Assembly (NCBI GenBank): GCA_020860565.1
Contig: JAJBUA010000009.1
Coordinates: 1 to 49,112 of the forward strand
Source of the DNA: Clostridiales bacterium
GTDB lineage: Bacteria > Bacillota > Clostridia > Lachnospirales > Lachnospiraceae
Length of the DNA: 49,112 nt
Direction: 5' to 3'
A program made the translations under genes and the position numbers. Each line of letters begins with the position of its first letter. The stretch's first letter is position 1. The notes under the pieces were generated by a model that saw only the letters and a list, made by a program, of their open reading frames with translations, searched no databases and had not been told where the DNA came from. Of the stretch, positions 10,550-41,135 are shown piece after piece.

Positions 10550-10916
10550 TCACCATCCTTGTCACATCCACCTGGATTTGAAGAACCGCATCCAGGGCTT
10601 TTTCCAATTCCGCAGTGATTGCCTGGGAACGCAGACCGCCCGTGTTAAAGTATTTGGCGATCTGGTTGATGTTGTTTGAGATGTTACTAAGCAGCCAGCT
10701 GATCCGCTTCATCTCTTCCCGAAGCTCCGGAAACTCCGCTGTGATTTTGTGGAAGACGGTGATCTTCCCACCGAGAAGAGATTTGCGTATATACTCCGAA
10801 CGAGATAGTCCGGCGGCATCTGCATTCTTATTGACCAGCTCCAGTTCTACGTCCGTAAGGCGGACGGTAATGATGTGCTGGTGGGTCAGTTCATTTTCTT
10901 TTTTGGGTCTTGCCAT
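10512..10916 (-). CDS. mobC: MobC-like relaxosome accessory protein
   Basis: 134 residues starting MARPKKENELTHQHIITVRLTDVE, a ribbon-helix-helix-type N-terminus (VRLTDVELELVNKNADAAGLSRSEYIRKSLL), followed by the MobC segment LLSNISNNINQIAKYFNTGG and a helical tail. MobC proteins bind oriT and help the relaxase open the nick region. The frame is open 40 codons further upstream, but ATG 10916 is chosen because AAAGGAGA precedes it and the RHH domain starts there; the upstream codons lie in the hairpin-rich region. It is first in the mobC-relaxase operon. Confidence 0.85.
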   Translation of the reverse strand: MARPKKENELTHQHIITVRLTDVELELVNKNADAAGLSRSEYIRKSLLGGKITVFHKITAEFPELREEMKRISWLLSNISNNINQIAKYFNTGGLRSQAITAELEKALDAVLQIQVDVTRMVNEVHGNLKTHYK

Positions 10917-10962
10917 ATCTGTTTTCTCCTTTAACGCTTTTTCAATTTGCCGCAGGCAGCAA

Positions 10963-11137
10963 TCACGGGAACCGTGACCGGGGCTGTGAAACACAGCGCC
11001 GCTGCGACCGTTTTGAACGGGAGCCAAATAGCACAATTCTCCGATTGTGCGTCAGCCGAGGGCATGGGAAAACGGAATTCCCATCAAGGACGCCCGTAAT
11101 CGGGAACCACGGTAGTGGTTTCTGTATTACAGGGCGT
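10963..11137. other. Candidate origin of transfer (oriT): cluster of hairpins upstream of mobC
   Basis: Immediately upstream of mobC are several perfect short hairpins: TCACGG/CCGTGA (10963-10977), GCTGTG/CACAGC (10983-10997), GCACAAT/ATTGTGC (11031-11050), ATGGGAA/TTCCCAT (11064-11084), and a nested pair ACGCCC-GTAAT (11090-11100) with ATTAC-GGGCGT (11126-11137) enclosing AACCAC/GTGGTT (11105-11120). Dense inverted repeats beside mobC are the usual look of oriT, with the nick expected beside one arm. The exact nick cannot be assigned by eye. The intergenic stretch 10917-11483 otherwise holds only the fold-back repeat and the leader of the next gene. Confidence 0.55.
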
Positions 11138-11157
11138 ATCTTGCTTTTATGATTACT

Positions 11158-11427
11158 CCCCTCACTAACCTGTGGTTCCAAACCCCATAGGACAAGCTTG
11201 CTGAAAAAATTTCCAGGATGAATGTTTGCTTTTGTGCTCTCACCTGATGAAATAGAAGCGAGAAAGTAAGGTGGTGGAAATGCTTGTTGAAAATAAAACT
11301 CAATCGCTTCCTTCTCAAAAATGAGAAGCGAGTTTTATCCTTTCTGAAGCCGCCCACAAAAACATTTTGAGAAATCTATGATAACAGCTTGTCTGGAGCC
11401 TCTTCTAACCACAGGTTAGTGAAGGGG
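11158..11427. repeat. 270-bp fold-back / MITE-like inverted-repeat element
   Basis: Outer arms CCCC-TCACTAACCTGTGGTT (11158-11177) and AACCACAGGTTAGTGA-GGGG (11407-11427) match over a perfect 16-bp core. Inside are a second nested pair GACAAGCT (11191-11198) / AGCTTGTC (11386-11393) and a central hairpin ATAAAACTC/GAGTTTTAT (11293-11338) with CTTCTCA/TGAGAAG in its loop. The nested symmetry extends over the whole stretch. No open reading frame of note and no obvious target-site duplication. It may be a non-autonomous element, a recombination site or part of a larger transfer origin. Confidence 0.55.
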
Positions 11428-11483
11428 AAAATATTTTTCGGAGATCTTTTCTCTTTCGATTTCAGGATAAGGAGACGAGACAA

Positions 11484-11762
11484 ATGGAAAAAAGGACAGA
11501 GGAACAGAAGCGGGAGTGTGTTTTGACGCTGGCAGAGCTGAAAGAAAAGGCGGCGGTAGACCCTCTGACGGTAGAGAGGGAGAGCCTGGTTGATGTCGCT
11601 GATGTGACGATCCGGACGGACCTGGACACCAGGGAGCGGATGTTGGATTATATCCGGCAGATAAAAAATCCGTACTGCTATCTCAGTAACGGCATGGTTG
11701 TGAAAATCAGCTTTGCAGGAAAAAAGTCTTTGCAGGACTGCCTGAAGGAAAGCCTGTTCTAA
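11484..11762 (+). CDS. DUF6870-like small protein preceding the recombinase operon
   Basis: 92 residues with a charged N-terminus (MEKRTEEQKRECVL) and the segment LVDVADVTIRTDLDTRERM followed by YIRQIKNPYCYLSNGMVVKISFA, which I recognise as the DUF6870 pattern: short proteins in clostridial mobile elements, commonly beside serine recombinases. No catalytic motif; function unknown. Start ATG 11484 follows AAGGAG at about 11469. The recombinase promoter lies just after its stop, so it is a separate or overlapping transcript. A role such as recombination directionality factor is conceivable from position only. Confidence 0.7.
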   Translation: MEKRTEEQKRECVLTLAELKEKAAVDPLTVERESLVDVADVTIRTDLDTRERMLDYIRQIKNPYCYLSNGMVVKISFAGKKSLQDCLKESLF

Positions 11763-11806
11763 AAGTGAAAAGAGAAAGAAAATTTACACTTTAGCGCTTT
11801 AAAGTG

Positions 11807-11835
11807 TTGACATGAGACCGGAACTGTGGGATAAT
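11807..11835 (+). promoter_or_regulatory. Strong promoter of the four-recombinase operon
   Basis: TTGACA (11807-11812), 17-bp spacer, GATAAT (11830-11835). It is preceded by TTTAGCGCTTTAAAG, a partial palindrome. The promoter lies inside the longest possible reading frame of the first recombinase, which supports using the later start at 11929. Confidence 0.75.
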
Positions 11836-11928
11836 GTCTCTGGGTCAAAACGAAACAGAGCAACCAAAAGCCAAGAATTTCCTGGTTTATTGTCGCATGG
11901 ACAAATAAAGAAGGGAGTTGTTGGCTAT

Positions 11929-13581
11929 ATGTATTTTCAGACAACAAAACAAATCTTGTGTGGAGACTACGTGCGACTTTCCAGAGAGGACGGAGACAAA
12001 CTGGAGAGCGATAGCATCCACAATCAAAAAGAACTGATTGCTGATTACCATCAGAAGCATCCGGAACTGAAATATGTGAAGGAGTATGTTGATGATGGAT
12101 TCAGCGGGACAGACTTCGACCGCCCTGGTTTCAAGAGAATGATGGACGATGCCGGGAAAGGGAAAATTAACTGTATTATAGTTAAAGACCTTTCCAGGCT
12201 CGGTCGTAACTATATCGAGACAGGTCGGTATCTTGAAAGAATATTCCCATCTATGGGTGTCCGCTTCATCGCCATTAACGATCACTATGACAGTGCAGAA
12301 GAAAATGGTGACAGCGACCAAATTATCATTCCTTTTAAAAACTTAATCAATGACGCTTACTGCCGGGATATCTCCATTAAGATACGGAGCCAGTTGGATG
12401 TGAAGCGCAAGAACGGGCAATTTATTGGAAGTTTTGCCGGGTATGGATATTTGAAAGACCCGCAGGATAAAAACCATCTGGTTGTTGACGAATATGCGGC
12501 TAACATCGTCCGGCTGATCTTTAAGTGGAAACTGGACGGCATGAGTTCTCAGCATATCGCGGCGCAACTGGATGAGATGGGCGCGCTGCCACCGCTGGAG
12601 TACAAGCGAATGTGCGGGCTGAATTTTAACAGCGGATTCAGGGCCGGGAAAAATCCAAAGTGGTCAGTGGTTTCTGTAAACCGTATCATGCGGAACGAGC
12701 TTTACACCGGAGTCATGGTGCAGGGAAAGCGAAAAAAGATTACCTATAAGCTGAAAGAGAGCCATGCGGTAGATGAGCGTGACTGGATCAAAGTACCCGG
12801 AACCCATGATGCGATCATCCCCCGGCCAGTCTTCGATCAGGTGCAGAAGCTGTTAGAACTGGACACACGGACTTCACCGGATGAGGACACTGTTTATCTG
12901 TTCTCCGGTTTTCTTCAGTGCGGTAGCTGCGGCCAGAACATGGTCAAACGGTGTAGCTGCAAGGGCGGGAAAAAATATCATTATTACCATTGCTCTACTT
13001 ATAAAAATGGAGATGGCTGTTCTTCCCATCTGATCAGCGAAAGCAGATTGACGCAGGCAGTCCTTGCGGCAGTCCAGAACCAGGTGGCGTTGTTGATGGA
13101 CGCGGAAAAGATGATAGCTGCTGTCGGCCAGAACGCGCAGGAGGATTACAGTGTAAAAGCGGTGGACACGCAGCTTATGAAGCTGGAAGAAGAGGTAAAC
13201 CGCTATCAGGATTTGAAGACGCATCTTTATGAGGATATGAAGGATGGCGTTATCAGCCGGGAAGAGTTTAAGGATTTGAACAGCCGTTTCACTAAGCAGA
13301 TGAAGGCGTCGCAGGAAAAAGTCGTGCAGATGAAAGAAAAAAGAGAGCGGCTGCTCTCACAGAAAAACGAACTGCAGCCGTGGCTGGAAGGGTTCCGTGA
13401 ATACCGCAGCATCGATCATTTGGAGCGGAAAGTCCTGACATCCATTGTGGATCATATCACGGTGAACGGGAAGGACAATATTGAAATCCATTTCCGTTAT
13501 GAGGATGAGATCAGGGAATTGTTGGAGCGGAGTGAAATGTGTAAGCGGATTGGTTTCGCTGGCGAGGAGTCGAAAGCATGA
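11929..13581 (+). CDS. Large serine recombinase 1
   Basis: 550 residues. Serine recombinases cut all four strands through a 5' phosphoserine and rotate subunits to integrate or excise elements. Catalytic Ser18 lies in YVRLSRED; the DLSRLGRNY helix carries the conserved Arg residues; YVDDGFSGTDFDRPGF is the usual resolvase strand. A Recombinase domain (about 165-280) and a zinc ribbon near 330 (CGSCGQNM...HCSTYKNGDGC) are followed by a coiled-coil (ETHLYEDMK/EEFKDLNSR type). ATG 11929 is chosen over the upstream frame because AAGGGAG precedes it and the promoter -10 is at 11830. Stop overlaps the next start by four bases. Confidence 0.85.
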   Translation: MYFQTTKQILCGDYVRLSREDGDKLESDSIHNQKELIADYHQKHPELKYVKEYVDDGFSGTDFDRPGFKRMMDDAGKGKINCIIVKDLSRLGRNYIETGRYLERIFPSMGVRFIAINDHYDSAEENGDSDQIIIPFKNLINDAYCRDISIKIRSQLDVKRKNGQFIGSFAGYGYLKDPQDKNHLVVDEYAANIVRLIFKWKLDGMSSQHIAAQLDEMGALPPLEYKRMCGLNFNSGFRAGKNPKWSVVSVNRIMRNELYTGVMVQGKRKKITYKLKESHAVDERDWIKVPGTHDAIIPRPVFDQVQKLLELDTRTSPDEDTVYLFSGFLQCGSCGQNMVKRCSCKGGKKYHYYHCSTYKNGDGCSSHLISESRLTQAVLAAVQNQVALLMDAEKMIAAVGQNAQEDYSVKAVDTQLMKLEEEVNRYQDLKTHLYEDMKDGVISREEFKDLNSRFTKQMKASQEKVVQMKEKRERLLSQKNELQPWLEGFREYRSIDHLERKVLTSIVDHITVNGKDNIEIHFRYEDEIRELLERSEMCKRIGFAGEESKA

Positions 13582-15098
13582 GATGGGTAAGTTATACAAG
13601 GGCGGTGTCCAGCAGGAAGGATGAAGAAAATCCTCCGGATATTATCAGCAGGCAGAACGCCCACATAGAAACATATATGAAAGAGCATGGCTTCAAAGTC
13701 AGCAGGAAATACAGTGACCGTAAATATTCTGTTGATGAGACAGAGTCTTTCAACCAGATGGTTCAGGATGGCATGAAAAGAGAATTTGATGGAGTTGTTG
13801 TCGAGTCTGTTTTCCGGTGCGGGAGGGATTTGTGGACAGCGATTGAAATACTCTACGAGACGTTTTATCCTGCCGGAATCCACTTTGCTGTTGTGGAAGA
13901 TGACTTCTGTAGCATGGGAAAAGACAAACAGAAGGTGACGGAGTATTTCACTGAGAAACGTTCCGAGTGGTATGCAAATGACAGTGCACTTAAAAATAAG
14001 AGGGTTTCTGACAGCGGAAAGATAAATCCAACACTGATACGGTATGGATTTGTTTTGTCAGAAGATCACAGCAGCCTTGAAATCGAGGAAGAGGGAGCAT
14101 CCATAGTACGTCAGATATACCAGATGTTCCTGGACGGGAAGAACTATTCCGTCATTGCAAAAGAGTTAAATGAACGGGGCGTTACTCCACCGCAGGAACA
14201 AAAGGCAATCGTGGCGGGGAAAGTGCCAAATGTGATTGTTCCCGCCAAGTGGATAGGAAGTTCGATACGAAAAATACTGGAGAGCCCTATTTATATGGGA
14301 CAGGCTACCCGTAAGGTGAAAGAGGTTACGGTAAATTATTCGGTTCCGCAGATCGTCTCTGAGGAAACCTTTGCGGCGGCGCAGGAGCGTATTGGAGGTT
14401 TGAAAAGTGAATCGAATGAGCAACAGAGGAAACCAACACAGACAAGCTTGCTTTACAAACGGATTTATTCTAAGGAAACCGGAATTGCATTGAGAAAAAT
14501 ACTGTCCCCGTTGGGAACCGGAGAAATGGTTTATGTCTTCAGTAAAAGCAAACGGGATCGCAGGGAAAACCATATACCATGCGAGACCGTGCATTCAGCT
14601 GTCAGAAATGCAATTTCAACCGCTGTCAGACAGGCCCGTTATATCAACCGGCTGCTGCAGGAAGAGGAACGCGAAGAAGTGGTTGAGGCAGAATTGAAAC
14701 CGTTACGGGAAAAAGCGCAATCTCTATTCAACAGGATGAATGATCTCTATTTGGAGAGGATGGATTTTTACCGCACTCATAACACTCAGGAGGATGATGC
14801 CGCAGCAATTACAGAGGTGGAGCAGGTGTATCAGGAACAGTTTCTGGAATGTGAAGCGCAGTTTAAAGCTGTAATGAACGAAGTGGAGATCGTGCGAAAG
14901 ACATTTAGCACAGCAAATCCGTGGGTGGCTTTATACAGAGAAATTGAAATGCCGGAAAGCCTTGAGCATGAGCATATCGTAAAGTGGATTGGTATCGTCC
15001 GGGTGGATAACGAGAAAAATATCGAAGTCACCCTGAAAGAATCTGAATGGATGGACAGACTTCCGGAAAAATGGCTTAAGGAAGGAGCAAGAGAATAG
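13578..15098 (+). CDS. Divergent serine recombinase 2 (shifted Ser, no zinc ribbon)
   Basis: 506 residues, clearly of the recombinase family but unusual. The catalytic motif reads YTRAVSSRKD: the Tyr-x-Arg pair is present, but the Ser expected two residues after Arg is Val10, with Ser11 and Ser12 next. The Arg helix is kept as SVFRCGRDL. A Recombinase domain is recognisable (IVRQIYQMFLDGKNYSVIAKEL; IRKILESPIYMG), but where the zinc ribbon should be (about 290-345) the CxxC pairs are missing. A coiled-coil near 350-440 remains. ATGA overlap with recombinase 1 and two-base spacing to recombinase 3 show co-translation. It may be a structural partner or target-selectivity subunit, or active with a re-registered Ser. 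Confidence 0.75.
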   Translation: MRWVSYTRAVSSRKDEENPPDIISRQNAHIETYMKEHGFKVSRKYSDRKYSVDETESFNQMVQDGMKREFDGVVVESVFRCGRDLWTAIEILYETFYPAGIHFAVVEDDFCSMGKDKQKVTEYFTEKRSEWYANDSALKNKRVSDSGKINPTLIRYGFVLSEDHSSLEIEEEGASIVRQIYQMFLDGKNYSVIAKELNERGVTPPQEQKAIVAGKVPNVIVPAKWIGSSIRKILESPIYMGQATRKVKEVTVNYSVPQIVSEETFAAAQERIGGLKSESNEQQRKPTQTSLLYKRIYSKETGIALRKILSPLGTGEMVYVFSKSKRDRRENHIPCETVHSAVRNAISTAVRQARYINRLLQEEEREEVVEAELKPLREKAQSLFNRMNDLYLERMDFYRTHNTQEDDAAAITEVEQVYQEQFLECEAQFKAVMNEVEIVRKTFSTANPWVALYREIEMPESLEHEHIVKWIGIVRVDNEKNIEVTLKESEWMDRLPEKWLKEGARE

Positions 15099-15099
15099 G

Positions 15100-16797
15100 A
15101 TGGCACGGAAAAGCAGAAAAAAGCCGGTTGGTTTATTGCCGGAAGTTCAACAGGCGCTGGATGTGGCAGCACTGGAAGTGAAATTACCGACAGCGGCATA
15201 TGCAAGGCTGTCCTCGGGAAACAGCGGTAATGAAACCGATGATTCCATACAGACACAAGTCATGCTGATTCATGATTTTATACGGGAACACAAAGATTTG
15301 CAGCTCATAGATACATATGTGGATAACGGTTATTCAGGGATGAACTTTGACCGCCCGGAGTTTGAGCGCCTGATGGGTGATGTGCGAAGTGGAAAGATAA
15401 AGTGCATTGTAGTAAAAGACCTCTCGCGCTTTGGTCGTGATTATCTGGAGACGGGGTATTATCTCGAAACAATTTTTCCACACTTGAAAGTGCGGTTTAT
15501 TGCTGTAACTGACGACTTTGATAATTCCCGTCAGGAGGATATGGAGAGCCTGGCTGTACCGATTAAGAACATGGTAAACGGTATGTACGCACGGGATATA
15601 TCCAAAAAGCTCGTTTCGGTTTATGAAATGAAGCGCGAACGAGGGGATTTGCTGAACGGCTTCCCTCCATATGGCTATGTCATTGACGAGGAAAAAAATA
15701 ATTATGCCGTTGACGAGAGTAAGGCGTGTTATATACGGGTGATGTATCAGTGGTTTTTGATGGGCGTCTCTAAATATGAGATCACAAAACGGCTTGATCT
15801 GTTGAAAGCGCCAAGGCCGCGGGAAAAGCGTCTGGACGAGACTCTGGAAGAAAACAATGGGCCATGGCAGACAAGCACCATCGGTCGATACCTTGAAAAT
15901 CCGATTTTTGCTGGCGACCTTGCATCCGGGAAAACAAAGCGTGCTGCGTATAAAGGGCTTAAGCCGCAGCCGGTGGAAAGGGACGATTGGGTGCTCCATC
16001 GTGATCATCATGAGGCTGTCGTACTCCGGTCGGATTATGATGCGGTTCAGAAAATTCTGGCAGGAAATAAACGTACCCGTAAAGAGCGGTTGGCAAAAAG
16101 TGAAAAAGAACGCGCTGAAACAACAAACGTTTTCCGCGGGATCATTTACTGCGGCTGCTGTGGGAGGCATATGACATTTATGCGATGTAAACATACTGTG
16201 GGGGCGGATACTTCATACGGAACATATTTTTGCAAATCAAAGGATGAAACTGCCCTATGCAGAAACCATTCCATCCCGGATAAGCTTTTACGAATCCTGG
16301 TGATGGATCAGATCAACCTGATGATTAAGGCAATGTGCGACAGAGGGCGTATGGTGAAATGCCTGATGGATGGAAAGGACGAAGGGAGCAAGGTTGCTTC
16401 AATACAGAAGAAGATAACCTCGCTTTCCTATCGGATAGAGCAAACCGAAGAGCGTAAAACGGTTTTATATGAAGATTATGTTGGCGGCCTTCTCGAAAAA
16501 GAAGAATACCAGTGTATGAAAGAGCGTTATATTTCCGAGCGGCAGAAGCTTGAAGAACGGCTCAGGGAGGCTTCACAGACGTTACAGAGTATGCAGAAAA
16601 AGGCTCGGCTTATAGATGAACAGGTGAAGCACCTGGAACATTATCTTGACTGCAGGGAGTTTGATGAGGGGCTTGTCAGGGAGCTGGTAGATGCGATTTA
16701 TATCGGCATTGATAATTCGATTGAGATTCGCTTCAAATGTAATGACGCTTATCAGCAATGGCTGGATTGTACGGAGGTTGATGAGGATGTTAGCTAA
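15100..16797 (+). CDS. Large serine recombinase 3
   Basis: 565 residues with a basic N-terminal extension of about 30 residues (MARKSRKKPVGLLPE) before the catalytic motif AAYARLSSGN, nucleophile Ser38. DLSRFGRDYLETG provides the conserved Arg helix. A Recombinase domain follows (WFLMGVSKYEITKRL; STIGRYLENPIFAGD), then a zinc ribbon (IYCGCCGRHMTFM...YFCKSK...C) and a coiled-coil (about 425-525). Start ATG 15100 is one base after the stop of recombinase 2, with AAGGAG 10 nt upstream. All expected residues are present, so it should be active. It probably acts together with recombinases 1 and 4 for integration and excision of the element. Confidence 0.85.
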   Translation: MARKSRKKPVGLLPEVQQALDVAALEVKLPTAAYARLSSGNSGNETDDSIQTQVMLIHDFIREHKDLQLIDTYVDNGYSGMNFDRPEFERLMGDVRSGKIKCIVVKDLSRFGRDYLETGYYLETIFPHLKVRFIAVTDDFDNSRQEDMESLAVPIKNMVNGMYARDISKKLVSVYEMKRERGDLLNGFPPYGYVIDEEKNNYAVDESKACYIRVMYQWFLMGVSKYEITKRLDLLKAPRPREKRLDETLEENNGPWQTSTIGRYLENPIFAGDLASGKTKRAAYKGLKPQPVERDDWVLHRDHHEAVVLRSDYDAVQKILAGNKRTRKERLAKSEKERAETTNVFRGIIYCGCCGRHMTFMRCKHTVGADTSYGTYFCKSKDETALCRNHSIPDKLLRILVMDQINLMIKAMCDRGRMVKCLMDGKDEGSKVASIQKKITSLSYRIEQTEERKTVLYEDYVGGLLEKEEYQCMKERYISERQKLEERLREASQTLQSMQKKARLIDEQVKHLEHYLDCREFDEGLVRELVDAIYIGIDNSIEIRFKCNDAYQQWLDCTEVDEDVS

Positions 16798-18496
16798 AGT
16801 GAATGCATTATATCTGCGTCTTTCCATGTCGGACGGCGACCTGGGCAGGGACAATAAGGATGAGAGCAACAGTATTGAGAACCAGCGTCAGCTGCTGCTG
16901 AACTATATCGAAGACAGGGATGATCTGGAATGTGACACCAGGGAGTATGTCGATGATGGTTATACCGGGACAAATTTTGAAAGACCCGAATTCCAGCAGA
17001 TGATGAAAGATGTCCAAAGCGGCGAGATAGCCTGTATCCTCGTCAAAGACCTTTCCCGGCTTGGCAGGGATTATATCGGCGTCGGAGATTATATTGAACA
17101 GATCTTTCCTTTGCTTGGAGTCAGGTTTATTGCTGTCAATAACAATTTTGACAGTGCAAAATTTACAGGGGCGACAATGGGCCTTGACCTTGCTATGAGC
17201 AACCTGGTTAACAGCCTGTACAGCCGGGATGTATCGAAAAAAATTCGGTCGACTTTTGAAACAAAATGGAAACAGGGGTGCCCCACTGCTTCGAGGGTGC
17301 CATTTGGCTATCTCTGGGATAGAACAAGCAAACAGCGCTGGGTGATTGATCCCGTTGCCTCTAAGTATGTAAGAAAGGTGTTTGATCTTGCGCTGGAGGG
17401 AAAGAACACGACTCAGATTGCGGCTGATCTGAACAGGGAACGGATTCCCACACCGGGATTGTACGCAAAGATGACAAAAAAACAGATCGCAGAGTCAGCG
17501 TTGATTGCTCCTGACAGTGAAATGCTGTGGAAACCGCCTATTGTAATTAATACGCTCAGAAGATATGAATACACCGGGGCTTTGGTTATGAGGAAAAATA
17601 AGACAATTTCTCTGGGAAGCCGCGCTGTCAGGAGCGTTAAGGAGAAAGACCGTATTATTACAGAAAATGCCCATGAAGCGATAGTGACCCATGAGGAATT
17701 TGAGCAAGCACAAGGAGCAATTCGTACAGTCAGCCCTATGACGTATAAAACAGAGTGGGATTATCCTTTAAAGAAGATTGTCCGCTGCGGCAACTGTAAT
17801 AGGCTGTTGACATATGGCACACGACATGGTGAAGGCTGTTTTGTGTGCTCCAGTAAAAGAGCTGTGGGCAGCTTTTCCAAATGCTATAACGGATTTTATA
17901 GAGAAGCCATAATCAATGCGAGAGTGGCTTATGCAATCCAAAATGTAATCCGGTCAGCTTATTTTTTACAGGAAAAGTTACAGGACAGGAACGCCAGGAG
18001 GACAGTGCAGCTTGATATACCTGAACCGGAGGAAAAACTGGTCAGTGATATGGAGATATTGAAAGCGGAACGGATGCGGCAGTACGAAGCATACGCTGAC
18101 GGCGTGATAGATAAAACTGCGTACCTCAAAAAGAAAAAAGAACTGACAGAAAAGATTGAGGCGATAGAAAATAAGATTTGGGAGGTAAGGGAAATACTCC
18201 GCGTGGAGAATGAACCTGTGGATTGCCTTCGGGAAGTTACTGAAAAGGCTTCTGCATACCCGCAGATGAACCGGTTGTCGCAGGAATTAGTACAGGCTTT
18301 TGTAGAAGCAGTGTATTTGGATGGTGACAGCATGAGGATTGTTTTTAAGTGTGAAGATTTGTTTCAGGAAGCACTGGAAAAGTATTTCCTGGACTCTGGC
18401 ATGACAAAAGATGAGGACGGAAGCTGGGTATATCCTGCGGAGAATGGAACGAATGACAGAGACATGGGTGTATACCGAAGAAGATGGAGGGAATGA
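16787..18496 (+). CDS. Large serine recombinase 4
   Basis: 569 residues. The motif ALYLRLSMSDGD places the nucleophile at Ser13; DLSRLGRDYIGVGDYIE carries the Arg helix and YVDDGYTGTNFERPEF the typical strand. The Recombinase domain (FDLALEGKNTTQIAADL; INTLRRYEYTGALVM), zinc ribbon (VRCGNCNRLLTYG...CFVCSSKR) and coiled-coil (MEILKAERMRQYEAYADG) follow in order. ATG 16787 overlaps the end of recombinase 3 and has CGGAGG 9 nt upstream; an in-frame ATG at 16781 is too close to that site. It is most similar in layout to recombinases 1 and 3. Confidence 0.85.
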   Translation: MLAKVNALYLRLSMSDGDLGRDNKDESNSIENQRQLLLNYIEDRDDLECDTREYVDDGYTGTNFERPEFQQMMKDVQSGEIACILVKDLSRLGRDYIGVGDYIEQIFPLLGVRFIAVNNNFDSAKFTGATMGLDLAMSNLVNSLYSRDVSKKIRSTFETKWKQGCPTASRVPFGYLWDRTSKQRWVIDPVASKYVRKVFDLALEGKNTTQIAADLNRERIPTPGLYAKMTKKQIAESALIAPDSEMLWKPPIVINTLRRYEYTGALVMRKNKTISLGSRAVRSVKEKDRIITENAHEAIVTHEEFEQAQGAIRTVSPMTYKTEWDYPLKKIVRCGNCNRLLTYGTRHGEGCFVCSSKRAVGSFSKCYNGFYREAIINARVAYAIQNVIRSAYFLQEKLQDRNARRTVQLDIPEPEEKLVSDMEILKAERMRQYEAYADGVIDKTAYLKKKKELTEKIEAIENKIWEVREILRVENEPVDCLREVTEKASAYPQMNRLSQELVQAFVEAVYLDGDSMRIVFKCEDLFQEALEKYFLDSGMTKDEDGSWVYPAENGTNDRDMGVYRRRWRE

Positions 18497-21170: not shown

Positions 21171-21234
21171 AGTTATAAGCCGTAATGCTGGAAGTCTCGG
21201 TAGAAGGCTGTTTGCCTGCTGAAATTATGATATA

Positions 21235-21296
21235 CCCGCATAAGTCAGTGACTGTACTTTGAATAAATTCAAGGTACAGTCAGGGGCTTATGCGGG
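21235..21296. terminator. Long bidirectional terminator hairpin
   Basis: CCCGCATAAG (21235-21244) pairs with CTTATGCGGG (21287-21296), and TGACTGTAC with GTACAGTCA inside, looped by GAATAAATTC. T-rich sequence follows on the plus side. It sits between convergent units: the zinc-finger-like gene and the minus-strand XRE gene. Confidence 0.85.
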
Positions 21297-21311
21297 CATT
21301 TTATTTACTGA

Positions 21312-21653
21312 TCAGATTCCAAGTCCGTAAAGGATTGCTTTCAATTCCTTCACGGTACGGGTGAGAATCTCTTCTTCGATTTCATTACAGTCCAACAAAA
21401 GGCGGTGTAGTTCACTGCCGGATGTTGAAGTTGGATGCTCCAGACTGTCTACCAACAGATCATCAGATGAAGTGCCGAGAGCATTTGCAATAGCAACAAG
21501 AGAATCCAGGCTGAGAGTTCTCTTGCCGACTTCTACCTTGTAGATATGGTCACGGGACAGATTGGATTTTTCCGCGAGATCATCCTGTGTCAAACCTTGT
21601 TTTGTGCGGAAGCTACAGATGCGCTTCCCTAATTTGTCATAATCAATGGACAT
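21312..21653 (-). CDS. XRE-family helix-turn-helix regulator
   Basis: 113 residues. The N-terminal HTH reads KRICSFRTKQGLTQDDLAEKSNLSRDHIYKVEVGKRTLSLDSL in pattern, i.e. the classic Cro/CI five-helix domain, followed by ALGTSSDDLL and an acidic C-terminal helix probably for dimerisation. The start ATG 21653 is favoured because AGAGAGG sits 9 nt upstream; ATG 21659 is too near. It is divergent from the RepA-like/recombinase operon starting at 21937, so it is the likely repressor of that operon, binding in the 280-bp gap that holds two GCGGAC palindromes. Confidence 0.82.
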   Translation of the reverse strand: MSIDYDKLGKRICSFRTKQGLTQDDLAEKSNLSRDHIYKVEVGKRTLSLDSLVAIANALGTSSDDLLVDSLEHPTSTSGSELHRLLLDCNEIEEEILTRTVKELKAILYGLGI

Positions 21654-21798
21654 AAGCATTGCCTCTCTTTCTTACTTATTGCCCGCATGAAACACAACAA
21701 TTATTAGCTTTGAAAAAGCCTATAGCAACGGGTTTTAGAATATTTTTGAAGTAAGACTGCAAAGAAAAACCTTCCTATCAGCATTGCATTCTTAAGCA

Positions 21799-21856
21799 AA
21801 AAAGCGGACTGATTGTCCGCTTTTTCGGCGTCAAGCGGACAACCAGTCCGATGTAA
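21799..21856. promoter_or_regulatory. Paired GCGGAC palindromes between XRE gene and recombinase operon
   Basis: AAAGCGGAC/GTCCGCTTT (21801-21822) forms a perfect 9-bp hairpin followed by T; shortly after comes CGGAC-AACCA-GTCCG (21836-21850). Both share the GCGGAC half-site in inverted orientation, as expected for operators of the divergent XRE protein. The first also looks like a terminator. A weak -10 (TACAAT, 21874-21879) is nearby. The gap 21654-21936 holds nothing else I can name. Confidence 0.45.
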
Positions 21857-21936
21857 TTTCGCAATCACTGGTGTACAATAAAGAAATAAAAAGAAAAGCG
21901 ATAACAACATCTATGTCAGCAGGACAGGGAGACAAA

Positions 21937-22929
21937 ATGAGCGAGAATAGCTGCAGTGGGATAAAATTATACAGTGATGTCTGTACTACGCAGGTGCGGT
22001 GGCTGTGGTATCCATTCATCGCACTTGGGAAATTGACGCTTCTTCAGGGCGATCCGGGAGATGGAAAATCCACGATGATGCTGAATTTGATTGCTGCGAT
22101 TTCAAATGGCGGTACTACCCCTGATGGACAAGCATTCGGACGACCTCATCGTGTAATCTACCAGTGTTCAGAAGATGGCGTGGAAGATACCATAAAGCCT
22201 CGGTTGGAAAGCTGTGGGGCTAATTGTGGAAATGTTGCATTCATTGATGAAGAAACACATGGAGGATTGACGTTGGATGACGAGCGCATCCGGCAGTCGA
22301 TTGCCAGCTTTCGTCCCTGGCTTGTTGTAATTGATCCAGTGCAGGCTTACGTTGGGAATGATGCTGATCTTCAGGTCGCGGGCAGAGCAAGGAAACTGAT
22401 GCACAGGCTCGGAATCTGGGCATCAACTTATGACTGCGCTATTGTACTTATCGGCCATTTAAATAAGAAGGAAGGCTCTAAAAATATTTATCGCAGCTTG
22501 GGAAGCATTGATGTGGTGGCAGCGGCGAGAAGCGTACTGCAGGTAGAACGTGACGAGGAAGATGAGGATATTCGGATTGTCCGTCAGATTAAGAACAGTT
22601 TGGCTCCGGTGGGGGACGAAATACGATATGAAATACGTCCGGGAAGTGGATTTAAATGGCTTGTGAGCAGTACGAGTTCATGTGCTGTTCATGTCCCGGA
22701 TAGAAATGCGATACCTCAATTTGAAACCAAGCAGGACAAAGCTGTTTTTCTCATCAAAAAATATCTGACAGATGGGGATATGAGGTCAAAAGAAATATTT
22801 ATGCGTCTTCATGATGAGGGGATTGGCCGGAGAACTGCGCAGATGGCAAAACAGGAAATGGGGGTTCAAAGTTACCGTACAAGGCAGGAATGGTACTGGA
22901 CTTTAGGACAGAAGCAAAATACTGAATAA
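21937..22929 (+). CDS. RepA-like AAA_25 ATPase
   Basis: 330 residues. Walker A GDPGDGKST at about 38-46, Walker B LVVIDPVQAYVG, then VLIGHLNKKEGSKNIYRSLGS, the DnaB/RecA-like motif of RepA replicative helicases and their element-borne relatives. The C-terminal 70 residues resemble a winged helix (SKEIFMRLHDEGIGRRTAQMAK). Such ATPases accompany recombinases in several Firmicute elements and may allow replication of the excised circle. ATG 21937 has AGGGAG upstream; the frame is open back to GTG 21871 but without ribosome site. It is the first gene of a five-gene operon reaching 26805. Confidence 0.78.
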   Translation: MSENSCSGIKLYSDVCTTQVRWLWYPFIALGKLTLLQGDPGDGKSTMMLNLIAAISNGGTTPDGQAFGRPHRVIYQCSEDGVEDTIKPRLESCGANCGNVAFIDEETHGGLTLDDERIRQSIASFRPWLVVIDPVQAYVGNDADLQVAGRARKLMHRLGIWASTYDCAIVLIGHLNKKEGSKNIYRSLGSIDVVAAARSVLQVERDEEDEDIRIVRQIKNSLAPVGDEIRYEIRPGSGFKWLVSSTSSCAVHVPDRNAIPQFETKQDKAVFLIKKYLTDGDMRSKEIFMRLHDEGIGRRTAQMAKQEMGVQSYRTRQEWYWTLGQKQNTE

Positions 22930-22989
22930 GCGTCATTAGCATTTTGCGCTATCAGGAGTGTGCGTACTACAAGGAGAGATAAGCGATAA

Positions 22990-23469
22990 ATGGCAGACAG
23001 GATTAAACTCGCCGGATACGTGAAACTGGCTAAGCTGTGGGAGAGAAATGCGGAGCAGGCGATTTTGTATCACCGTGAGTATTACGAGAAGAAATATGCG
23101 GATGACAACAGAGTAATTCTTGTTGGTGTGTACATAGATATCACAGGCCAGAAGATGATTCCGAAGCGCCCGGAAATGGTGCGGCTGCTGAAGGACTGTA
23201 CGTTGGGAAAAATCAGCTGCATTGAGGCTCAGACCAAAGGTTATTTTGCTGCGAATACGCAGGAATTGTGTTTTCTGTTGAAATATATTTTCGATCTGCC
23301 ATATCAGATAGATTTGCTGACAGAGGACAGGGAATACCATATTGACACAATCCGGAACGAGGATGGTCAGAAGCAGGCTCTTAAAAAGATGGCGGATGAT
23401 TACGTGGGTCTATACTCCGATGATTATACGAAGTGGAAGAAGAGGCTTCTGCTTGAAATAGAGAAATAA
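22990..23469 (+). CDS. Stand-alone resolvase-like domain lacking catalytic residues
   Basis: 159 residues that align with only the N-terminal catalytic domain of serine recombinases: strand 1 LAGYVKLAKL (usual YARVS), VILVGVYIDITG (usual VGVYADEGISG), RPEMVRLLKDCTLGKISC (usual RPGFQRLLEDCRAGKID), and a helix TKGYFAANTQEL in place of SRFARNTxDL. The nucleophilic Ser is Ala14, the neighbouring Arg is Lys12, and the Arg residues of the SRFARN helix are gone, so it cannot cut DNA. It has no DNA-binding domain. Start ATG 22990 follows AGGAGAGATAAG. Placed 18 bp before an intact recombinase, it is best seen as a regulatory or structural subunit of it. Confidence 0.65.
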   Translation: MADRIKLAGYVKLAKLWERNAEQAILYHREYYEKKYADDNRVILVGVYIDITGQKMIPKRPEMVRLLKDCTLGKISCIEAQTKGYFAANTQELCFLLKYIFDLPYQIDLLTEDREYHIDTIRNEDGQKQALKKMADDYVGLYSDDYTKWKKRLLLEIEK

Positions 23470-23487
23470 CAGGAGGAAAGGACGGAT

Positions 23488-25452
23488 ATGGAACAAGAAG
23501 AGCTGCATAAAGAATTGTCTGAAGATGAGGAGAAGAGCCGTATCGGGGAAACCGATGAGGAGAATGAACAGTCAGACTCCATGAAGTCTGCTCATCTAAG
23601 TGACTGGCAGCGGCGGCACGAAGAACTGGCAGCGAATAAGGAGGAAATTCGCAACAGAATACGGAATACACAGACCGGAAATGTGACATTGCATCCAGCA
23701 AAACCTCAGCCTTCAATCACAGATGGGGATATGTCAGTGGCTGTTTACGCCCGCGTCAGCACAAAGAGTGAAGAACAGGTTTCATCTATAGAAAATCAGA
23801 CATTGTACTATTCGAAAAAAATCGAGGATACTCCGAACTGGACGATGCAGAAAATATATAGTGATGAAGGTAAGTCTGGTACTTCCATGAAGCACAGAAC
23901 CGCATTTAACCAGATGATAGAGGATGCCGGAAAAAAGGATTTTGATCTGATTATCTGCGCCAGTGTTTCCCGATTTGCAAGGAATATGTCAGATTGCATG
24001 AATGTGATCAGGCAATTAAAAACGAAAAATCCGTCACATCCGGTAGGAGTGTACTTTGAGACTGAAAATATTTATACTCTGAAAGAGGATTCCATGCAGA
24101 GCCTTTCCATCCATGCGATGCTGGCCGATTGGGAATCCGCTACGAAGAGCAGCCGCATGTTTTTATCTTATGACCAGAGAATTATTATGGGGCAGTATCC
24201 GGTTTCAGATTTGCTGGGCTATCGGCACACAAAAGACGGGAGGCTTATCATTCAAGAGGATGAAGCTGTGACTGTAAGGTTTATTTACATGGCGGCTTTG
24301 GCCGGGTATGGCCTTACGAGAATTGCGGAAATTCTGACAGAGAAAAAACGCCCGACTCTGAAAGGAAGGACGGAGTGGAATGCGGGGATGGTCAGCAGCA
24401 TTTTATCGAATGAGCGGCGCTGGGGTGATCTGGAAGCGAGAAAAACGGTTGTCGTTGACTATGTAGATCATAAGTCTAAGAAAAATGAGGGAGAACGGGT
24501 ATCTGCATATGTAGAGGGACATCATGAAGGAATTGTGACACCAGAGATCGCAAAGGCTGCGAAGCTGGCAGTTACGAGCAGGGCTACCGGTTATAGTATC
24601 CCGGATGTGAGAGTGATTTGTTCCGGTGGACTGCAGGGGTTTGTCAGTGTAAATCCGTGCTTCAGTGGTGTAAACAGGGATATGATGAAAAATTTGTCCC
24701 GTATTGCTTACAGTGACGAGGAATATGCTGCGATTGAACAGGAAGCGCGCATCATTAGCGGCGATGAACACTGTAAGGTTATGTCTATGGATTTCAGCGG
24801 TTATTATGTCCCGTACAGCGCCTACTTTATCGGTAGAGATACCCCAACCCTTACAAATTCGCAGTCTCGGATAAAGTTCAACAGTAAATGTCTGGAACGC
24901 TTTGCAGGAGTTCAATTTGTAGAACTGTTGTATCATCCGCTTCTGCAGATGATTGTTATCAGGGATAGCGATGCAACCTGTGGATTTAATATATTCACGG
25001 ACGACGGCAGTACAATTTCTTCATTCAGTACAAAAGCATTCTGTCAGGCGGTATATGAAGAAATGGACTGGATTCAGGATTACAGCTTCCGTTTTCGAGG
25101 CATTATGCGGGAACGCGGGAGCCATAAGGCCATGGCTTTTTACCTTGACGAACCGCAGGTGGTAAAGAATAAGGCTTCACAGAAGGCTGCTGAGTCTGTT
25201 GGTGAGAAGCAGGCGGAACTGTCTTCGAGATTTATCCCGATTACAAACAGCGAATTAAAAAATCCTTCAGAGACAAAAAGGCGTAAGGGTTCCCTTTACC
25301 CGATCAGAAAGCGCAGAGATTCTATTTTAGATTCGCTTACATATGAGGATATTTCCGGATGTGGAACGCTTGTTGATAATCCTGTCATTGGAACGATTCC
25401 GACCAGGCAGGATATTTTGGATGAGATCGATGATTTATTAATGTCTATGTAG
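23488..25452 (+). CDS. Serine recombinase with novel C-terminal domain
   Basis: 654 residues. An acidic, coiled-coil N-terminal extension of 85 residues precedes the catalytic motif VAVYARVSTKSEEQ with nucleophile Ser91; SVSRFARNMSD gives the Arg helix. A Recombinase domain follows (FIYMAALAGYGLTRIAEIL; VSSILSNERRWGDL). No zinc ribbon with paired Cys is present. Instead the region about 452-560 (KFNSKCLERFAGVQF ... KAMAFYLDEP) resembles the next two proteins. The tail is basic (TKRRKGSLYPIRKRRDSILD). ATG 23488 has AGGAGG 12 nt upstream. Likely the integrase of a separate element from the four-recombinase one. Confidence 0.8.
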   Translation: MEQEELHKELSEDEEKSRIGETDEENEQSDSMKSAHLSDWQRRHEELAANKEEIRNRIRNTQTGNVTLHPAKPQPSITDGDMSVAVYARVSTKSEEQVSSIENQTLYYSKKIEDTPNWTMQKIYSDEGKSGTSMKHRTAFNQMIEDAGKKDFDLIICASVSRFARNMSDCMNVIRQLKTKNPSHPVGVYFETENIYTLKEDSMQSLSIHAMLADWESATKSSRMFLSYDQRIIMGQYPVSDLLGYRHTKDGRLIIQEDEAVTVRFIYMAALAGYGLTRIAEILTEKKRPTLKGRTEWNAGMVSSILSNERRWGDLEARKTVVVDYVDHKSKKNEGERVSAYVEGHHEGIVTPEIAKAAKLAVTSRATGYSIPDVRVICSGGLQGFVSVNPCFSGVNRDMMKNLSRIAYSDEEYAAIEQEARIISGDEHCKVMSMDFSGYYVPYSAYFIGRDTPTLTNSQSRIKFNSKCLERFAGVQFVELLYHPLLQMIVIRDSDATCGFNIFTDDGSTISSFSTKAFCQAVYEEMDWIQDYSFRFRGIMRERGSHKAMAFYLDEPQVVKNKASQKAAESVGEKQAELSSRFIPITNSELKNPSETKRRKGSLYPIRKRRDSILDSLTYEDISGCGTLVDNPVIGTIPTRQDILDEIDDLLMSM

Positions 25453-25471
25453 GGGACGAAAGGATATTGAC

Positions 25472-26398
25472 ATGGAAAATATCGGGCAGACAGAAAATGT
25501 GAATAATATAGAGGAAAAGGCTGCAGCCGGTTCTGCGGAAAAACAAAAATCAGGAGAATCCTATAATATCAGTGACCAGGAGTTGATTCGCTTGCTTGTT
25601 AAATCCAGACAGGCACAGGACAGAAAATTGGAATATGAAGATTTGGATGGTTATGAAATGCCTCCCCGCACACAGTTTTCTATGCTGAAAAAGCCGGCGG
25701 TCAGTATTAAGAGGGGGAAACTGACATTTAATATGGCGTGTATCCGTCTGTTTGAGGGAGTTGAATTTATTCTTCCTCTTATTCATGTCGGCAAAAAGAA
25801 ATTGACCATCGTAATGTGCGCAGAAGAAGAAAGCGCTTCTGTGGCATGGGCCAGAAAACGGCAGAGAGATGGACAGTGGACGAACAGGGATATTACTTCG
25901 CCTGATTTTGTTTACAATATTTATCGGATGATGAACTGGAAAGAAGACTGCCGGTATAAAGTTCTGGGGTATGTAGCAAATTCTGCCCAAGGATTAGTGC
26001 TGGTTTTTGAACTGGAAGAGGCGATAATGTTCTCATCTGTACCGGAGGAATATGTTGATAAGGAGACTGGAGAGACGAAGAAACGTCAGGTGAAATATTA
26101 TCCGGATTTCTATAAAAACAGGATTGGAAAATCCTACAATGATTACATGGAGACCAGACAGATTAACATGTTCGAATACCTCGAAGAATATAGGGGAAAG
26201 ACTTATGCCGATCTGATTGCAGATGAGAAGGCAGCTGCGGAAACGGCTTCTGTGGAAAATTACGGAGAGGAGCGGGAAACTGCCTCAGCCGTTATAGATA
26301 ATGGTATGATATCTAATGCTGATACCCGTGAAGAAATACATAGAGAGCTTCAAACGGAACCGGAAACCAAAAATAAAGAAACAGGGGTGTGGAAGTGA
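25472..26398 (+). CDS. Free copy of the recombinase C-terminal domain (protein A)
   Basis: 308 residues. A charged N-terminus leads to a core at about 75-190: SIKRGKLTFNMACIRLFEGVEF, then KKLTIVMCAEE, FVYNIYRMMNWKEDCRYKVLGY and LVFELEEAIMF. These line up with the C-terminal domain of the preceding recombinase (FNSKCLERFAGVQF, QMIVIRDSD, FCQAVYEEMDWIQDYSFRFRG, MAFYLDEPQVV). It has no catalytic resolvase part. The acidic tail includes YGEERETASA. It is 19 bp after the recombinase, same operon. I infer it forms part of a multi-subunit recombinase or DNA-binding complex; the function has not been described to my knowledge. Confidence 0.6.
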   Translation: MENIGQTENVNNIEEKAAAGSAEKQKSGESYNISDQELIRLLVKSRQAQDRKLEYEDLDGYEMPPRTQFSMLKKPAVSIKRGKLTFNMACIRLFEGVEFILPLIHVGKKKLTIVMCAEEESASVAWARKRQRDGQWTNRDITSPDFVYNIYRMMNWKEDCRYKVLGYVANSAQGLVLVFELEEAIMFSSVPEEYVDKETGETKKRQVKYYPDFYKNRIGKSYNDYMETRQINMFEYLEEYRGKTYADLIADEKAAAETASVENYGEERETASAVIDNGMISNADTREEIHRELQTEPETKNKETGVWK

Positions 26399-26805
26399 CA
26401 GAGACAATAAGCAATGCGCAGGAAAAACTCTGGAAAACAAAAACGACACGCGTAAATCTGCAGATGAGTATCTATGGGAGACGTGCGCGCATTTTTCTGA
26501 CAAAAGATGTGATTCGTGTTCTGGGTGTGCCAGGATATGTCTGTTTTAAAGTCAATGAGGCATGGGATTCCATCATGGTAATGCCATGTGCCGATAAAGA
26601 GCAGATGTCGTTTAAGGTTCCGGATAATATTTTATTTTCAGAAAAAAAGATGGAATTTAAAAGCAAGGCGTTTACTGATACGCTGATGGACCGGAACGTC
26701 CTCGATCATCAAGGGACATACCATGTCCCTGGGCTGTATTTTGAGAATTACAATGTTGTCGTTTTTGATTTGAAAAACAACAGTTTGTATAGCATAGACA
26801 AATAA
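26389..26805 (+). CDS. Free copy of the recombinase C-terminal domain (protein B)
   Basis: 138 residues. It appears to be a shorter, more divergent version of the same domain: RRARIFLTKDVIRVLGVPGYV, DSIMVMPCADKEQ, a KSKAFTD helix, and YNVVVFDLKNNSLY as the last strand, matching in order the strands of protein A and of the recombinase C-terminus. Start GTG 26389 (or GTG 26395, 6 nt after GGGGT) overlaps the stop of protein A, so the two are coupled. Last gene of the operon; an orphan SOS-like box and a terminator follow. Confidence 0.55.
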   Translation: MEVTETISNAQEKLWKTKTTRVNLQMSIYGRRARIFLTKDVIRVLGVPGYVCFKVNEAWDSIMVMPCADKEQMSFKVPDNILFSEKKMEFKSKAFTDTLMDRNVLDHQGTYHVPGLYFENYNVVVFDLKNNSLYSIDK

Positions 26806-26840
26806 GAGAATTTCACTATCCTGCATTTGTATAGGAAAAT

Positions 26841-26854
26841 AGAACATTTGTTCT
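26841..26854. promoter_or_regulatory. SOS-like palindrome (GAAC-N4-GTTC)
   Basis: AGAACATTTGTTCT is a perfect palindrome fitting the GAAC-N4-GTTC LexA box of Bacillus and clostridia. It overlaps a -10-like TAAAAT. No gene follows before the terminator at 26878, so the box may be orphaned by a deletion, or may control read-through. Confidence 0.4.
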
Positions 26855-26877
26855 AAAATGAATATAGAAAAAACTTT

Positions 26878-26909
26878 GAGCTTCTGAGGGATCAGAGGCT
26901 CTTTTTTTT
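26878..26909 (+). terminator. Intrinsic terminator
   Basis: GAGC-TT-CTGA, loop GGGA, TCAG-AG-GCTC then eight T (26902-26909). Ends the RepA-like/recombinase operon or a short transcript from the SOS-like site. Confidence 0.85.
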
Positions 26910-26930
26910 GCAAAAAAAGTTGTTCCTTAG

Positions 26931-27509
26931 TTGACAACAGGAGGATATGTGGGATTGTCGCTTGCCGTCCTTCTGGCACAGCATAACACAGTTACGGCGG
27001 TGGATATTGTGGCTGATAAGGTTGAAAAAATCAATAATAGGATACGAATTAGAGGAAATAATAATCAAATTGAATTTGGCGAAAATTGTATAGTTGGACC
27101 AAATTGTTCCTTCTGGATGGAAGGTAATAATATATCAATTACTATCGGTCAGTATACTACATTCACAAGACAATGCCATCTTAACGCTCAAGAAGATGGA
27201 GCAAAAATAGTAATTGGGAAAGATTGTATGTTTTCCAACCAAATTGTGGTAAGGACATCAGATTCACATGCAATCTATAACATTGAATCTGGTGAAAGAG
27301 TTAATAATTCGAAAGATGTTATCGTAGAAGATCACGTTTGGATTGCTCCGAATACAAAAATAATGAAGGGTGCTTGTATTGGCACAGGAGCCATAATTGG
27401 TTCAGACACTACTGTTTCTAAAAAAATCCCTTCTAATGTGTTGGCAGTAGGGCGCCCTTCAAAGGTTGTTAAAGAAAATGTTGAATGGACTAGAGAAAAG
27501 TTATTTTAA
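26931..27509 (+). pseudogene. In-frame chimera: UDP-sugar dehydrogenase fragment + hexapeptide acyltransferase
   Basis: The first 36 codons (26931-27038) encode TTGGYVGLSLAVLLAQHN and VDIVADKVEKINNR, the Rossmann start of a UDP-glucose/UDP-mannuronic dehydrogenase (ugd-like), lacking its real N-terminus. Without a break the frame continues into a left-handed beta-helix acyltransferase (GNNNQIEFGENCIVGPNC; VIVEDHVWIAPNTKIMKGACIG; SNVLAVGRPSKVVKE) down to residue 192. The acyltransferase part has intact hexapeptide rungs and catalytic-type His (SDSHAIYN), as in capsule O-acetyltransferases. There is no ribosome site at the TTG start, so it is probably silent. It is a scar from a surface-polysaccharide cluster. 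Confidence 0.65.
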
Positions 27510-27516
27510 AATCGAA

Positions 27517-27648
27517 ATGAAAATATTTGTAACAGGTGTCGGTGGTCAACTCGGACATAATGTGATGAATTATTTGTATCTGAGCGATAAAGACCAGAAG
27601 TGGGTAGGATTAAAAGAAATATTCAGTTTTGATTATAAAGCGAGATAA
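27517..27648 (+). pseudogene. In-frame chimera: RmlD start + RmlC-like end
   Basis: 43 codons. MKIFVTGVGGQLGHNVMN is the N-terminus of dTDP-4-dehydrorhamnose reductase (RmlD); the rest, LSDKDQKWVGLKEIFSFDY, looks like the C-terminal end of a dTDP-4-dehydrorhamnose 3,5-epimerase (RmlC). Both enzymes act in dTDP-rhamnose synthesis. The join inside one frame suggests a deletion between neighbouring genes. Not expected to be functional. Confidence 0.55.
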
Positions 27649-27659
27649 TGCAGAGGAGG

Positions 27660-40318: not shown

Positions 40319-41068
40319 ATGCAGGAACAGAGTACTTGCGTCAGCACAGCCAGAGGAGATATTATTGATGTTCATGCCCATGTCCTGCCGGGGGTAGACG
40401 ATGGCGCCCGCGACAGGGAGGAGTCCATAAGACTTCTGGAGATGGCTTACAGTCAGGGTGTGCGCGCAGTGATAGCAACGCCGCATTACTCCAGGCGAGG
40501 CAGGAACCAGGGTTATGAGGAGATTGCGGTCGGGCTGGAAGAGTGCTTCCGGCAGAAGCATCCGGATTTTCGGATCTGGGTCGGTCAGGAGACCTACTAC
40601 CATGAGGAACTGGCGGAGCGGTTAAGACAGGGGCTGGGTCATACGATGGCGGGAAGCCGGTATGTCCTGGTGGAATATGATACCGGCGTTTCTTTTCAGA
40701 CTCTCTGCCGTGGACTGCGTCAGCTGACGGACGCTGGCTATATCCCGATTCTGGCTCATCTGGAACGATATTCGTGTCTGTATGAAAAGGGAAGAGTGGA
40801 AGAACTGATCAGTCATGGCAGTAAGATGCAGATGAACTATGAAAGCCTGACCGGTCATTTTTATGACAGGCAGACACGGTGGTGCCGCAAACAGGTCCTG
40901 GAAGGACATATTCATTTATTAGGGAGTGATATGCATCGTCTGGATTTCAGGCCGCCGGAGATTACAGAGGCGCTTGCATGGCTGAAAAAGCATACAGATG
41001 CCGCAGTATGGGATCTTCTGGTCAGGAAAAATGCGGAGCGCATCATTCGTGATGAAATGATTCCGTGA
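40319..41068 (+). CDS. CpsB/CapC-type tyrosine-protein phosphatase (PHP family)
   Basis: 249 residues. Metal-binding PHP motifs are all visible: DVHAHVLPGVDDGA near the N-terminus, AVIATPHYS, LAHLERY in the middle and LGSDMHRLDFRPPE near the end. CpsB/YwqE phosphatases remove phosphate from the tyrosine tail of the CpsD kinase and so control capsule or exopolysaccharide export. Start ATG 40319 follows CAGGAGAATAGC. First gene of the operon with cpsC, cpsD and an LCP gene, the classical Gram-positive polysaccharide control order. Confidence 0.9.
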   Translation: MQEQSTCVSTARGDIIDVHAHVLPGVDDGARDREESIRLLEMAYSQGVRAVIATPHYSRRGRNQGYEEIAVGLEECFRQKHPDFRIWVGQETYYHEELAERLRQGLGHTMAGSRYVLVEYDTGVSFQTLCRGLRQLTDAGYIPILAHLERYSCLYEKGRVEELISHGSKMQMNYESLTGHFYDRQTRWCRKQVLEGHIHLLGSDMHRLDFRPPEITEALAWLKKHTDAAVWDLLVRKNAERIIRDEMIP

Positions 41069-41135
41069 GGGGATGATTTGTGAAATCCCTAAAATTAGAG
41101 AGGAGTAACGGTATCGTTACGCAAGATAAAGGGAA

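Follow-up and report, generated by a model that had tools for sequence, protein, structure and literature searches.

To our knowledge, serine recombinases have usually been described as single proteins assisted by at most one directionality factor. Staphylococcal cassette chromosome (SCC) cassettes carry more than one recombinase each, and we know of no dead subunit and no tail-only protein in their Ccr systems. In Mu and Tn7 transposition, a DDE transposase works with an AAA regulator. Here, we describe a locus of a Lachnospiraceae genome of 2.8 Mb in which a serine recombinase gene is accompanied by genes for copies of its own parts. The locus lies in a contig of 49,112 nucleotides (JAJBUA010000009.1), the entire length of which is called the window below. 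Five genes transcribed in one direction (positions 21937 to 26805) form an operon that encodes an AAA_25 ATPase and the proteins P0001 (159 amino acids), P0002 (654 amino acids), P0003 (308 amino acids), and P0004 (138 amino acids), with an XRE regulator gene in the opposite orientation ahead of it. A first-pass annotation had read these proteins as one recombinase divided and duplicated into several kinds of subunits. Our analysis confirmed the observation of a multipart recombinase and supported the interpretation given to it.

P0002 has the same catalytic and Recombinase domains as the large serine recombinases of Clostridia (3g13, TnpX of Tn4451, and the TP901-1 integrase), and the recombinase profile had its best PDB sequence match in 3g13, a putative conjugative transposon recombinase (E of 1.7e-55). 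Unlike those proteins, P0002 has no detected zinc ribbon, and its operon adds predicted dead and tail-only subunits and a nucleoside triphosphatase (NTPase). The SPbeta serine integrase and its recombination directionality factor (YokA and YotN, PDB 9dxd) also combine a catalytic recombinase with a small partner protein, judging from the PDB titles, whereas the partners found here are paralogues of the recombinase's own parts. The best NCBIfam matches of P0002 were the Ccr proteins of SCC (CcrA, CcrB, and CcrC), with CcrB (E of 1.1e-24) reaching 87 bits versus a cutoff of 900. The likeness to Mu and Tn7, which we regard as an analogy only, consists of a recombinase traveling with an NTPase, and the chemistry here is that of a serine recombinase and not DDE.

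The catalytic domain of P0002 (23488 to 25452, forward strand) was matched by PF00239 (E of 1.4e-22), and its Recombinase domain was matched by PF07508 (E of 1.5e-14, over the cutoff). Residues R89, S91, R162, and R165 were kept in all 86 of the P0002 homologues compared, which were chosen by length and score with identical sequences counted once. No zinc ribbon was found by Pfam after the Recombinase domain at an E of ≤1; at about residues 431 to 560, where other recombinases carry one, P0002 has a tail domain that is common to P0003 and P0004 and for which no PDB sequence match was significant (best E of 0.59). Both parts of the earlier statement about this protein, that it is intact at Ser91 and that it lacks a zinc ribbon, were thus borne out, and its catalytic and Recombinase domains place P0002 among the large serine recombinases.

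Alignments of the relatives of each protein were then compared by HH-align. The family of P0003 (25472 to 26398, forward strand) matched the P0002 tail with a probability of 99.9 (E of 2.5e-36), and the family of the shorter P0004 (26389 to 26805, forward strand) matched both of these, with probabilities of 98.2 (E of 3.8e-14) and 98.0 (E of 1.5e-13), while ten control pairings gave probabilities of 0.1 to 0.3. An AbrB/MraZ-like DNA-binding fold with a swapped hairpin and a DNA sliding clamp fold were considered as candidates for the P0003 core. The recurrence of the P0002 C-terminal domain in the 308-residue protein and, more weakly, in the 138-residue protein, for which the first-pass annotation had proposed a profile alignment as the check, therefore held against these negative controls. 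A tree of the tail domain was built from 105 columns and 267 sequences, after 14 short copies among the initial 281 sequences had been left out for coverage. All 86 recombinase tails formed one group (support of 0.89), all 74 short copies another (support of 0.98), and all 107 free tails a third (support of only 0.36). Because the three tail paralogues form separate groups, the tail duplications, as judged from this tree, preceded the spread of the family. In some viral contigs there is a second free copy, which is short, and 13 of these copies formed one clade (0.998). Two free tails of about 200 and 148 amino acids, in most cases with a short copy too, mark a lineage of viral contigs made up of L123, L124, L132, L143, L164, L165, and L172 and also in L175, L181, L182, L183, L186, L188, and L192; one or two additional recombinases lie alongside in this series of contigs.

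P0001 (22990 to 23469, forward strand) has a resolvase fold by structure and lacks the catalytic Ser and Arg. Its family matched the P0002 catalytic domain with an HH-align probability of 95.6 (E of 1.2e-8); pairwise searches had given neither P0001 nor P0004 a match to its expected domain. K12 and A14, the Arg-to-Lys and Ser-to-Ala changes already reported for this protein, were present in 9 of 9 P0001 sequences, so that the homologues compared do not carry the catalytic residues either; the residue count at the Ser column left out 3 of 12 P0001 homologues for coverage, plus two fragments (L212 and L156), and 3 of the 9 P0001 rows retained were gapped there. These loci also encode 15 other small resolvase proteins, 11 of them directly upstream of the recombinase. 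None of the 13 in which the Ser column could be read had Ser, which was kept in all 125 readable full-length neighboring recombinases. Between the window and the related locus L032, the ratio of nonsynonymous to synonymous substitution rates was 0.075 for P0001, 0.064 for P0002, 0.128 for P0003, and 0.056 for P0004, and P0001 is thus constrained about as strongly as P0002. These results indicate that P0001, a subunit with a resolvase fold, no longer has its catalytic residues but has been kept under selection.

Of 299 genomes of the family, 15 gave a match to the tail protein, the window's own genome included, and a profile search of 391 genomes of the class detected it in 9. Viral contigs yielded 115 stretches with this protein, of which 80 were kept, and it was also detected in 20 phage records and one plasmid record. 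The recombinase set is present on a 247-kb circular Subdoligranulum record near a reading frame that reads as ParA-like. Partner genes were tabulated for 90 loci carrying a recombinase and a tail copy, after the exclusion of 16 loci that were short or duplicated and of those whose tail protein was identical to that of another locus. The ATPase was the only partner in 35 loci and a ParB-fold pair, which lies downstream, was the only partner in 46; no locus had both, and 9 had neither. The conserved co-occurrence that the synteny check was to look for is therefore present, in the form of a tail copy and a recombinase with either NTPase partner. Pairwise distances correlated with those of the recombinase at 0.955 for the free tail (n = 84), 0.868 for the short tail (n = 77), 0.665 for the ATPase (n = 36), and 0.761 for ParB2 (n = 43), values corrected for shared ancestry no further than by a permutation test. 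ParB2 of L043 is a DUF6551 protein (E of 3.6e-35); ParB1 of that locus had no Pfam match, and its name comes from reading. Phage DUF6551 ParB-fold proteins are reported to bind CTP or ATP (PMC12704722). Of the 90 loci, 70 showed other serine recombinases and 1 showed tyrosine recombinases, with none in the available stretch of the remaining 19. Two “Candidatus Heliusvirales” gut phages (PV036410 and PV036458) carry the recombinase, the tail copy, the short tail, and the ParB-fold pair, all annotated as hypothetical, and other records of this group match the recombinase and the tail. Nine core genes are given for the group in PMC9226167, of which seven are named, none as a recombinase, and two are unnamed. 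Unlike these phages, the window element is mobilizable, and no phage structural gene was seen in the 29 open reading frames (ORFs) scanned: neither capsid nor terminase had a Pfam match there, in a scan in which the nine Heliusvirales core genes were not sought. A search of open-access literature (titles and abstract openings) returned no description of this recombinase set or of capsule elements of this kind.

The explanation that we prefer, and to which we give about an even chance, is that the set is a hetero-oligomeric serine recombinase that acts most likely on the element's own DNA and does not integrate it. P0002 is the predicted active catalytic subunit, and P0003 and P0004 are, by homology, free copies of its tail domain. 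The subunits would assemble on DNA, where P0001 may pair with P0002 in a catalytic dimer or tetramer as a noncutting partner and so restrain or direct strand exchange. P0003 and P0004 could bind DNA or the P0002 tail and might replace the role that the coiled coil has in the assembly and direction of other large serine recombinases. The NTPase, which is the ATPase here and the ParB-fold pair in other lineages, would license the reaction, and the divergent XRE protein would hold the operon in check. The reaction itself might be the resolution or rearrangement of a circular form of the element; recombination of the element's own DNA appears most likely because the set is carried beside several unrelated integration systems. 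More tentatively, and with less than even confidence, we propose a new class of machine for site-specific recombination, made of active, dead, and tail-only subunits with an AAA ATPase or ParB-fold NTPase as a switch, present in gut phages and capsule-carrying elements and used for something other than integration. An operon of a recombinase, a dead paralogue, free tails, and an NTPase would show another way of controlling strand exchange, with recombination tools under tighter control as a possible gain, and the presence of relatives in Clostridia genomes and their phages makes its function open to testing.

The relationship of the set to the element that carries it was judged from its neighbors in other genomes. 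In L044, a ParB-type set lies in an element that has another recombinase at its end (11379 to 13730), continuing in the same frame into a SpoVT-like end (by reading). The G239 element, which adjoins a truncated CpaF-like frame, carries the set with restriction-modification-like genes (both by reading) and, farther along, three tyrosine recombinases (PF00589). The set comes after an integrase-like reading frame (by reading) in L217, and two full serine recombinases stand beside it in phages and many viral contigs. Because the set adjoins unrelated integrases in these places, it probably does not serve as its carrier's integrase, and we hold with moderate confidence that it is better read as an accessory recombination module. 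Our first idea had been that the set is the integrase or excisionase of a capsule-carrying element, acting on the left end (LE) and right end (RE) described below with the free tails as directionality factors. It was demoted to a rival explanation, one that we now find rather unlikely, because the element in G300:C11 has both LE and RE with four other serine recombinases between them and without this set and because the RE motif had 0 matches in the viral contigs, where a protein-based scan had given the 115 relatives of the tail protein. In addition, no P0003 homologue was detected in genome G027, which has an RE, and conservation is much higher in the RE than in the recombinase, with 23 of 26 bases equal between the window and L036, the recombinases of which are 33% identical. 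What weighs in favor of an integrase, and against an accessory module, is the position of the set 111 to 270 bp from the RE in 6 of 7 genomes with the strict RE motif, together with two RE-adjoining elements: that of G243, in which the four-recombinase marker was absent at an E of ≤1e-30, and that of G300:C14, in which no other recombinase was seen nearby and the ORFs between the set and the upstream contig end were read as genes for ribokinase and sugar transport.

The partners of the recombinase also bear on whether the set is a maintenance module that preserves circular phage and mobilizable-element DNA by multimer resolution and partition. An actin/ParM-like gene fills the RE-adjoining slot in the C11 element, the ParB-fold pair is found in about half of the tabulated loci, and the circular Subdoligranulum record has its ParA-like frame near the set; on the other side, the ParB-fold family has other roles too, and ordinary multimer resolution, as we understand it, needs neither a dead subunit nor tail copies, so that we consider this explanation unlikely. 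A module for defense or lysogeny control, directing recombination against incoming or competing DNA, would fit those copies that adjoin restriction-modification-like genes (by reading) and XRE regulators near phage ends. It appears improbable, since PADLOC matched none of P0001 to P0004 nor the ParB pair and matched the ATPase only weakly (mad8, E of 2.9e-4). The failed pairwise searches for P0001 and P0004 are what could be said for the small proteins being unrelated genes that resemble the recombinase by chance, a proposition that is contradicted by the controlled profile scores, the tree groups, the synteny, and the structure of P0001 and that we find scarcely credible.

The complete module is a conserved block (21217 to 26944) that aligns to L031 (96.7%) and L032 (83.1%), the similarity ending just left of 21217 and, on the right, at the RE of the element. 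The ATPase at the head of the operon (21937 to 22929, forward strand), which the first-pass annotation had called RepA-like, is of the RepA/RadA-like AAA_25 family (PF13481, E of 5.9e-23) and also matched phrog_296, a DNA transposition protein (E of 1.8e-13). The divergent gene (21312 to 21659, reverse strand) was identified as XRE by HTH_3 (E of 3.2e-14), also as annotated, and is transcribed away from the operon. Between the two, at 21799 to 21850, lie two dyads, GCGGAC-N5-GTCCGC and GCGGAC-N5-GTCCG, which are probable operators of the XRE protein. Because both dyads (GCGTAC-N5-GTACGC) and the XRE protein differ in L032, coevolution of the protein and its putative operators is suggested. These dyads were the only candidates found for a recombination site near the operon and are better read as operators. 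Dyads with arms of 8 were absent from the tested regions of L038, L047, L048, and L214, and one was present in L043. A terminator-like hairpin with a T run (26878 to 26909, forward strand) separates the module from the end of the element, and similar hairpins were seen by eye at other right ends. We rejected the possibility that the module is a small transposon in its own right, as it is bounded on the left by a hairpin past the XRE gene and on the right by the end of the larger element.

That element has, in the window, a MobA/VirD2-type relaxase gene (8852 to 10549, reverse strand; PF03432, E of 3e-18), a NikA-like gene (10512 to 11036), and four tandem serine recombinase genes (11812 to 18496, forward strand), named by reading, which are its probable integration genes. 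Its RE (26919 to 26944, forward strand), 114 bp from the module end, is GTTGTTCC-N4-TTGACA-N2-AGGAGG, with the crossover after 26944. It is followed by the predicted interrupted target, a 5′-truncated UDP-glucose dehydrogenase (ugd) fragment (26945 to 27034, forward strand; PF03721, E of 5.8e-4, also matched by NCBIfam) that is fused to an acetyltransferase reading frame. A 26-base end of the same kind, GTTGTTCC-N4-TTGACA-N2-AGNAGG, was found in the window, L031, L032, L033, L034, and L036, each time abutting a different sequence. In 5 of these 6, that sequence reads as a 5′-truncated polysaccharide gene, namely, ugd in the window, a flippase in L031, and a sugar transferase in L033, L034, and L036 (PF02397 at L034; L031, L033, and L036 by reading); L032 received no assignment. 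Right ends were also found in L092 and L093 and left ends in L101 to L105 and L107 to L109. We read all of these as the termini of one family of mobile elements that target capsule or polysaccharide genes and have GG as their core. The left-end pattern (GG, 9 bases, TATAATAGGGACAACC) had 9 matches in 5 of 10 genomes versus 1 for the reversed pattern, with GG exactly 9 bases ahead of TATAAT in all 9. Of the two ends, the window contains the right one only, and a search of its own genome that allowed one mismatch gave no left end; an array of RE-like sites in that genome was considered and dropped, as there was one exact site and six others at two mismatches versus four for the reversed control.

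In G300:C11 (L093 to L094, about 808 to 39056), one sugar-transferase gene is split by an insert of about 38 kb that contains polysaccharide genes, a relaxase gene, and four serine recombinase genes (by reading), with an actin-like gene (ParM/Alp, Pfam) near the right end. When the flanks were rejoined, both for this gene and for the G301 flippase gene, the halves of which are on two contigs, a single open frame ran through the junction. Joining the ends places TTGACA 17 bases from TATAAT (18 bases in C11, with TTGACC), and for this reason a TTGACA-N17-TATAAT promoter should form only in the circle. In Tn4451, a promoter reportedly forms in the circular form. The public viral contigs had 0 matches to the circle junction and 1 match to the LE, in L238, where the dinucleotide is GA instead of GG. 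In G302:C19 (L110, about 9198 to 16930), nine matches to the start of one glycosyltransferase were found, of which one is the full gene and three are cut at a left end. This array is what would be expected if elements had inserted one after another into the first gene of their predecessors, apparently replacing the capsule gene set. The window element is, by its genes, mobilizable, and its relatives carry capsule genes; it offers a concrete explanation for capsule-locus change in Lachnospiraceae, which may go by serial insertion. Capsule loci on mobile elements have been described in Bacteroidetes, and that report says that the enrichment is there only (PMC6907783).

Several smaller features of the element and its surroundings were recorded. 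The second of the four tandem recombinases (13578 to 15098, 506 amino acids) reads Y-T-R-A-V-S, in which the spacing departs by one residue from the usual Y-x-R-x-S, and is possibly another altered catalytic subunit. About 250 bases downstream of left ends (for example, in L103, L104, and L105), a similar leader with a hairpin-like stretch and TTGTCGT lies ahead of the first capsule gene; we assume that such a leader could be the target of a NusG/LoaP-type regulator. Beside the acetyltransferase frame, positions 27520 to 27650 read as the remnant of an rmlD-like gene together with a piece of a further gene, resembling an eroded polysaccharide locus, and CpsB/CapC, Wzz, and LytR-type genes are present at 40319 to 43848.

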